Shown in pieces: positions 51,316-52,990 of a DNA stretch of 64,000 nucleotides; position 1 is the stretch's first letter; each line of letters begins with the position of its first letter. This DNA is from Fidelibacterota bacterium (GTDB lineage Bacteria > Fidelibacterota > Marinisomatia > SCGC-AAA003-L08 > TS1B11), in contig CP070638.1 of NCBI GenBank assembly GCA_020354025.1, forward strand, positions 3,197,526 through 3,261,525, read 5' to 3'. A program made the translations under genes and the position numbers. Under the pieces are notes generated by a model. The model searched no databases and was not told the DNA's origin. It saw only the letters and a program-made list of their open reading frames with translations.

Positions 51316-51543
51316 TCAGGACACGCCCTTCACCAGCAGGCCGATCATAACGATCATGGCCACGAAGATGGCAGCAACGCCGTAGTTCTTGTTCCTGATC
51401 TCGGCCCATTCATCAATGTCCCTTGAGATCAAGGAAAAGATCCATACAGCGATGGCGGTACCTAGCGAAAAGCCGATAGAAACCGCTAACGCCCAGCCGA
51501 TAGCGCGTAGGTAAAGTATGAAAGTGTCACCAATGGATAGCAC
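51316..51543 (-). CDS. DUF350-like small membrane protein, copy 1
   Basis: A 75-residue protein with two hydrophobic segments (about 14-40 and 54-71) joined by RDIDEWAEIRNKNYG, which is one repeat of the DUF350 (UPF0719) fold; full-length members usually have two or more. GTG start after GGGGAG. It shares 64 of 75 residues with the protein at 52.0-52.3 kb by my count, so the two are recent duplicates. It follows a decayed copy of the secreted-protein gene. Function unknown. Confidence 0.75.
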   Translation of the reverse strand: MLSIGDTFILYLRAIGWALAVSIGFSLGTAIAVWIFSLISRDIDEWAEIRNKNYGVAAIFVAMIVMIGLLVKGVS

Positions 51544-51558
51544 GTCGTTTCTCCCCGT

Positions 51559-51790
51559 TTATATTCCATTCTATTTATCGTATGAATTGGTTAATTCGAT
51601 TTCCCCCTAGGGCAGCTTTTCCACCAACGCTATCTCAGCGTTGCTCATGATGATCATGAAGCCATTCTTGGGGAATCATACGGTAGCATGGATGGTTTTT
51701 TTAACTTCAGCCCTGTATGGGCCGTGGCTTGTGCTGCAGCCAGGTATACCCCACTAACAGCACAGAAATAGGCCTCTGATATTTGCCAAA
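51559..51790 (-). pseudogene. Decayed copy of the 52.3-kb secreted protein gene
   Basis: The DNA aligns by eye to the 3' two-thirds of the gene at 52291-52725 (for example TTCCACCA-CGCTATCTCAG against TTCCACCAGAGCCACATCAG), but the frame is broken and the 5' part is missing. It stands in the same place relative to DUF350 copy 1 as the intact gene does to copy 2. It is thus a dead duplicate. Confidence 0.7.
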
Positions 51791-52047
51791 GCGGAACACA
51801 TATCATTCACTCTGCATAGACTATCTAGTAAAAATCTTCTTCGGACTCATTACTGACCCTACAGAATTTTAAACGTCAGCCACTATGATAGCAAGAGATA
51901 CCATTATCCTTCACGCAGGCATCAATCGATGGTCAAGAGTCGAAAAATATCTCATAATGCCATCGTGCGGGAGCGCGACAAAAAGATAAAACCTCGCCAG
52001 CGCAGCGGGGTTTGTCTATATAAGGATTTTAACCGAGCCTGCAGTGA
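51791..52047. other. Gap between the two duplicated units
   Basis: No gene seen. It contains TAGCAAGAGATACCAT at 51889-51904, identical to 52812-52827, which marks the upstream edge of each copy of the duplication. Confidence 0.6.
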
Positions 52048-52275
52048 TCAGGCCACATGCATCACCAGCAGACCGATCATTACGATCAGTGCTACGAAGA
52101 TGGCCGCCACGCCGTAGTTTTTATTCCTGATTTCAGCCCACTCGTCAATATCTCTCGAGACCAGGGCGAAGATCCAGATAGCTATGGCTGTACCCAGCGA
52201 GAAGCCGATGGAAACCGCAAGTGCCCAGCCAATGGACCGCAGGTATTGTGTAAGGGTGTCACCGATTGATAGCAC
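52048..52275 (-). CDS. DUF350-like small membrane protein, copy 2
   Basis: A 75-residue two-helix membrane protein nearly the same as copy 1 at 51.3 kb. GTG start after AAGGAGG. It lies 15 bp after the intact secreted-protein gene and forms a two-gene unit with it. Substitutions between copies are mostly in the first ten and last five residues. Function unknown; DUF350 proteins are small inner-membrane proteins. Confidence 0.78.
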   Translation of the reverse strand: MLSIGDTLTQYLRSIGWALAVSIGFSLGTAIAIWIFALVSRDIDEWAEIRNKNYGVAAIFVALIVMIGLLVMHVA

Positions 52276-52290
52276 GTCAATCCTCCTTGT

Positions 52291-52725
52291 TTAATTCCAC
52301 TCTAATTTCTGCATGAACTGGGAAGACTTGATTTTTCCCAGACGCAACTGTTCCACCAGAGCCACATCAGCAGTGGTCATGAGAAGCATGTTGTCTGCTT
52401 TGGGAATGGTTACGGTGATATTGATAGTTTTTATTTCGATGCCCGTGCGCGCGATGGCCTGGCTCGCGGCGACATATCCGACCAGTATCACTTCTTCGAA
52501 ATTATTACGCCGACTCTGAAGCGCGAGCGTAAAAGTGGCACCATTGTCTCCTGATTCTTCCAGGTCCATCTGTTTCATGGTAACAGGCACCCGGTAGGAC
52601 TTGCAGACCTGCTGCACAATGGAGTAAAAAGGTAGATTAGCCCAGGCCGGTGCAGCCGATCCCAAACACCACCCCAGCACCAACAAGGTCGAGAGTAATC
52701 TTAAGCGTTTACCTGAATGGAACAC
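52291..52725 (-). CDS. Secreted protein of unknown function, paired with DUF350
   Basis: A 144-residue protein with a signal peptide (LLSTLLVLGWCLGSAAPAWA, cleavage about residue 29). The mature part is a small mixed alpha/beta domain with no motif I recognise. GTG start with an AGGAG before it. It is the first gene of a two-gene unit with the DUF350-like protein. A decayed copy lies 500 bp downstream. Confidence 0.7.
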   Translation of the reverse strand: MFHSGKRLRLLSTLLVLGWCLGSAAPAWANLPFYSIVQQVCKSYRVPVTMKQMDLEESGDNGATFTLALQSRRNNFEEVILVGYVAASQAIARTGIEIKTINITVTIPKADNMLLMTTADVALVEQLRLGKIKSSQFMQKLEWN

Positions 52726-52990
52726 GTGTCTTTTCTCCTTCTTAGAACAATTGGGTGAATGCTTTCATAGACATGTTGGATATGGGGGATATTAAATAGC
52801 CAAACAGGCTGTAGCAAGAGATACCATGGAGTCGGTTTCATTCAAACTGAAGCTGACAGATGCAGGGAGGTCTATCCGGGCAGGCGAGATCACGGTAAGC
52901 CGGTTCGTGCGGGTATCCCGTTGCAGGATTGGTTAACTTAGGACAGTTGCCAAGTGAACTGAAAATCCCTTCAATCCGATTTACAGGGGG

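Follow-up and report, generated by a model that had tools for sequence, protein, structure and literature searches.

The window analysed here, a 64,000-nucleotide stretch, lies in a genome assembled as a single 3.40 Mb contig (rated 95% complete) and carries two units of a small two-gene arrangement, B and A. All features lie on the minus strand, in the order promoter B, exported protein B, DUF350-B, a terminator-like hairpin, promoter A, an exported-gene remnant, and DUF350-A. Unit B consists of a putative promoter upstream/-35 region (ATGGTATCTCTTGCTA, 52812..52827), which matches the 16-mer discussed below at 16 of 16 positions and is followed by the variant -10 TAATAT, an intact open reading frame with a GTG start for an exported protein of 144 aa that has orthologues in synteny (52291..52725), and an open reading frame for a 75 aa, apparently single-repeat DUF350-like membrane protein with two helices (52048..52275; PF03994, E 6.5e-5, 23.4 bits). 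A hairpin with a T-rich tail, located by pattern scan and folding (51995..52007), lies between the units; the terminator scan found 4 candidates in the region vs 1.9 expected in shuffles, a count within the shuffle range. Unit A has a promoter of the form canonical for the family (ATGGTATCTCTTGCTA-17 nt-TAAAAT, 51866..51904), a class I exported-gene remnant recognised from tblastn fragments and DNA matches to class I genes (about 51563..51799), and an intact open reading frame for a second 75 aa single-repeat DUF350-like protein (51316..51543; PF03994, E 2e-5, 25.1 bits), preceded by a ribosome-binding-site-like stretch. The DUF350 copies share 64 of 75 residues, and their DNA is 79% identical over 247 nt. 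No RNA families were matched.

An earlier note on this DNA had described two DUF350 copies sharing 64 of 75 residues and a secreted-protein gene intact in one unit and decayed in the other; the open reading frames and their alignment bear out the former, and the open reading frame in unit B vs tblastn fragments with stops in unit A the latter. Four pieces of the exported protein can be read in the unit A remnant (residues 1-16, 84-99, 99-133, and 129-144), in differing frames with in-frame stops; residues 17-83 (about 200 nt) are missing, and the ribosome-binding site of the remnant is poor by inspection. Exported proteins of the family were divided into class I, the syntenic orthologues of unit B, and class II, a diverged set. 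By tblastn the remnant pieces are closest to class I proteins, not to class II, and the three best DNA matches of the remnant are all class I genes (67-74%). Unit A as a relocated class II unit was thus rejected for the exported gene; the DUF350-A gene by itself does not discriminate between the two origins. The note further took the units for two copies of one two-gene operon, decayed in one of them, each with the promoter; these observations support that reading.

Could the decay be a sequencing or assembly error? Only one assembly is available, and the class I DUF350 gene of the relative G186 (L073 8374-8595) carries a TAA in frame near codon 26 beside an intact exported partner, a stop that may be decay of the other partner or itself an assembly error. 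Against error stand the loss of about 200 nt, several frame changes and stops, all flanked by intact neighbours, and the divergence of the DUF350 copies at 21% of DNA positions, which makes this explanation highly improbable. The same divergence and the single contig show that this is not a duplicated-assembly artefact; the note had named a sequencing or assembly artefact at 51.5-51.8 kb as a possible refutation.

The earlier note also proposed looking for the pair in relatives, where it proved common. Among 245 Ca. Neomarinimicrobiota genomes, the DUF350 protein was found in 158, the exported protein in 150, both in 145, and neither in 82 (Fisher p about 2e-44, a value that ignores kinship among the genomes). 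In fetched loci, which comprise best matches and chosen families rather than a random sample and leave out seven loci from a related-locus search, an exported open reading frame lies directly upstream of 43 of 48 DUF350 frames, and a DUF350 frame directly downstream of 43 of 55 exported frames, with gaps of -8 to 43 nt. Among the unpaired frames, some lie at contig ends or contain a stop (L076, L107, L073), and partner loss in both directions is seen among relatives. Intact tandem units occur independently in G222 (exported-DUF350-exported-DUF350, L126 5633-7142), and an independent exported-exported-DUF350 tandem in G205 (L122 5811-7245). A contig scan with single-sequence patterns gave matches titled Neomarinimicrobiota or Marinimicrobia, plus one titled just 'bacterium', and a literature search found no paper joining Marinimicrobia and DUF350. 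The pair is a widespread and apparently undescribed module of Ca. Neomarinimicrobiota.

Outside the window's family, an amidohydrolase gene precedes the module on the same strand, no more than about 200 bp away, at 20 of 39 loci (L100, L102, L104-L114, L118, L124, L125, L128, L132, L133, and L135), often itself preceded by urocanase. We take this amidohydrolase to be imidazolonepropionase-like and the genes further upstream to be rpsD-rpoA-rplQ-like. Two families (L126, L127, L129, L130, L134) have a longer DUF350 protein, of 97-108 aa; in the sequences inspected, it begins with an N-terminal extension resembling a signal peptide, which would place the N-terminus outside. The gene upstream of the module in these loci is presumably PlsX-like.

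The 16-mer TAGCAAGAGATACCAT occurs in exactly two exact copies (51889-51904 and 52812-52827) in the window and in the 3.40 Mb genome, at the 5' (upstream) end of each unit and, in unit A, on the side facing unit B. On the coding strand, ATGGTATCTCTTGCTA ends in the -35-like TTGCTA and is followed 17 nt later by TAAAAT in unit A or TAATAT in unit B. By sequence comparison, the 16-mer is the -35 region of a predicted promoter, CTTGCTA-N17-TAAAAT, that is conserved ahead of the orthologous pairs in the family. Its best matches upstream of 10 family class I genes are 11-16 of 16. When one upstream region was shuffled 1000 times, the scores were 7-13, and since 77 of the 1000 reached at least 11, the weakest matches are not significant singly. 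The pattern CTTGC-N17-20-TAAAAT was found within 250 nt upstream of 9 of 10 class I units (the exception being B) and of unit A, as well as at 1 of 8 class II units, with 0 or 1 hit in 2000 per shuffled upstream region. The stricter CTTGCTA-N16-18-TAAAAT occurs twice in the genome, once at unit A. The family's canonical promoter therefore persists at unit A despite the dead first gene, and together with the candidate terminator it would set unit A apart as a transcription unit of its own. The earlier note had taken the 16-mer for the outer edge of the duplication, a reading that conservation upstream of orthologous class I units rules out; being a promoter element, it does not allow the edges of the duplicated block to be read from it.

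The unit B exported protein has a signal peptide that by inspection apparently ends in ...AWA. It matched 0 Pfam or NCBIfam families, its 58 members gave no credible match in either collection (scattered matches were inconsistent), and none was found in PHROGs. The motif RRNNFEEV is invariant in an alignment of 8 sequences, and R73 is conserved in more than 90% of 58 sequences. A model built from 8 sequences (mean pLDDT 83.6) is predicted to contain, past the signal peptide, a helix, two strands, a long helix, two strands, and two helices. The best fold matches (Foldseek E 0.01; VIA Z 6.9 over 99 residues at 3.7 A) include none that is significant. Assigning a function from fold was rejected, as the middling Z scores to CamS-like pheromone precursors, the MamM C-terminal domain, Fam96a/CIAO2B, and EscJ/PrgK all reflect common alpha/beta arrangements. 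A PDB sequence search gave weak matches, 4 of 5 of them to the profile part derived from long marine forms. In three relatives, the exported domain lies within a protein of 297-338 aa (L067 4788-5804, L068 3738-4676, L069 3366-4259) with a conserved C-terminal extension, and the L068 form, scanned alone, had no Pfam match.

The membrane protein is best read, from its sequence, as corresponding to a single repeat of DUF350 (YjfL), a family of two-repeat proteins. The window proteins show the repeat similarity of PF03994 but score below its gathering cut-off of 26 bits, and at 75 aa and two helices they do not contain the two-repeat chain (4TM or more). PF03994 matches each of the 48 single-repeat proteins scanned with an E of 0.1 or better, the best being 1.2e-7, and 3 of 20 genomes have at least one match above the cut-off. 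In these 20 genomes, matches cover about one half of the profile, either half, except for a gapped match over 12-132 in 54 codons in G193 and a match over 11-105 with stops inside in G190. Compared with E. coli YjfL, the DUF350 profile aligns along the first repeat, where the conserved DEWxxIKxxN loop falls, and not recognisably along the second; the either-half matches and this alignment lead to the single-repeat reading. The structural model has two long helices (mean pLDDT 72, pTM 0.43), and the PDB sequence search gave no matches for the DUF350 protein.

PMC11237479 describes YjfL/DUF350 proteins as 4TM and 8TM, whereas the proteins here have two helices, and places them with lipoproteins in PspA and polyamine operons, proposing extracellular stress sensing linked to membrane dynamics. 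PMC4602095 lists a YjfL structure prediction and PMC5114695 concerns DUF3501. As in the E. coli yjfI-J-K-L-M-C PspA/polyamine operon, the DUF350 membrane gene adjoins an envelope-protein gene; unlike there, the envelope partner precedes DUF350 here. The exported-protein profile has no similarity to YjfM (DUF1190), a PF04012 (PspA) search at E up to 1e-3 found nothing in the genome (95% complete) and was positive in 9 of 14 control genomes, and no polyamine gene was recognised in recurrent neighbourhoods, some of which were scanned with Pfam.

DUF350-A and DUF350-B differ by about 34.5 synonymous changes (56 sites) and 13.5 nonsynonymous changes (166 sites), giving dS 1.27, dN 0.086, and dN/dS 0.068. 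Against class I genes of congeners, dN/dS is 0.082 (G185) and 0.122 (G187) for A and 0.112 (G185), 0.057 (G187), and 0.104 (G186) for B, an equal degree of apparent constraint; both membrane genes look constrained at the sequence level. DUF350-A could instead be a decaying leftover, with the whole unit being lost and the 75-codon frame open by chance, and its operon partner is indeed dead and no second class I unit is seen in congeners (one of which has a contig break in the gene). Against this, a neutrally drifting A branch should show several times as many replacements as observed, together with stops, and the start codon and canonical promoter are retained, so a leftover is improbable. DUF350-A is probably still functional, as promoter and gene have been retained while the exported partner was lost. 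The dosage or diverging role suggested in the earlier note may apply, both copies looking constrained and relatives having lost either partner.

The earlier note inferred a duplication of about 0.8 kb; a recent duplication is not borne out. The A-B dS of 1.27 exceeds the 0.76-0.94 obtained between B and its class I counterparts in three congeners, which disfavours recent duplication, with values above 1 being near saturation; it is unlikely on these grounds. Dating by DUF350 phylogeny (222 bp) was dropped, every one of four topologies staying in the confidence set of an AU test with 5000 replicates, a number the program warned is few. Congeners G185 and G186 each have a single class I unit (one contig each; 70% and 67% complete), G187 being excluded from this comparison because its contigs break inside the gene, and unit A is seen in this genome only among those compared. 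In G187, one DUF350 gene is cut by the ends of two contigs that overlap briefly (L075 12669-12889 and L076 1-128), and this assembly branch may hide a second DUF350 copy.

Unit B stands where class I pairs stand in family f1, divergent from DoxX, phosphodiesterase, and ZIP-family genes (variably complete), and the oxidoreductase genes left of unit A were not found beside the class I pair at any of the family loci compared. As the DUF350 tree leaves A/B sisterhood undecided, A is possibly an incoming copy from a relative. Unit A could have come from a related lineage through transfer or rearrangement, with no tandem duplication here. That would fit a gene with dS values of 1.27 against B, 0.79 against G187, and 1.00 against G185_I, the congeners being at least as near as B, and a pseudogene N-terminal fragment nearer the G185 class I protein (75% of 16) than unit B (56% of 16); A is in tandem with B on the same strand, and A and B as sisters survive the AU test (p 0.43), and we regard such an arrival as somewhat unlikely, if a serious contender.

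Pair conservation, the decay, the constraint on DUF350-A, and the conserved promoter can be read from the sequences themselves. On balance we consider it probable that unit A is an old second copy of the operon whose promoter and DUF350-A have been kept by selection. Unit B would be the genome's copy of a widespread envelope operon comprising a promoter, an exported alpha/beta protein, and a single-repeat DUF350. In unit A, the exported gene decayed, with the promoter and membrane gene presumably retained by selection, and the dead gene now forms a roughly 320-nt leader from promoter A to DUF350-A. DUF350-A would be transcribed independently from its own promoter and could supply extra or slightly different membrane subunits, pairing with itself or with DUF350-B, a pairing suggested by one repeat being half of the usual two-repeat fold. 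Single repeats plausibly dimerise into what 4TM DUF350 proteins form in one chain, and DUF350-A could thereby add dose or make A-B dimers. Their exported partner would then be a protein encoded at another site of the genome.

As a rival explanation, DUF350-A might have been kept for the orphan class II exported protein of the same genome (L070 7866-8333), in a reciprocal loss of partners. The gene for that protein has no DUF350 beside it, and the genome holds two exported and two DUF350 genes in all. Class II exported genes form one clade separate from class I (support 100), with an adjoining DUF350 in four of eight genomes (G184, G185, G186, and G191) and none in G000 (the genome analysed here), G189, G192, and G193. 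G192 and G193, however, have a partnerless class II exported gene and one DUF350 gene each, so a spare DUF350 is not obligatory, and we judge the reciprocal-loss explanation unlikely.

Unit A as an old copy retained for its membrane gene also admits a bolder and quite doubtful extension, in which the single-repeat DUF350 is a living half-protein, an A-B heterodimer formed after duplication re-creates the two-repeat fold as an intermediate toward the fused 4TM family, and the exported protein acts as shared regulator. That the conserved promoter has outlasted the first gene suggests, at the sequence level, that keeping the membrane half by itself is worthwhile. The duplicate itself is ordinary operon decay. 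What it points to is a conserved envelope module of two genes, in a phylum that is largely uncultured, and a DUF350 that occurs naturally as a single repeat.
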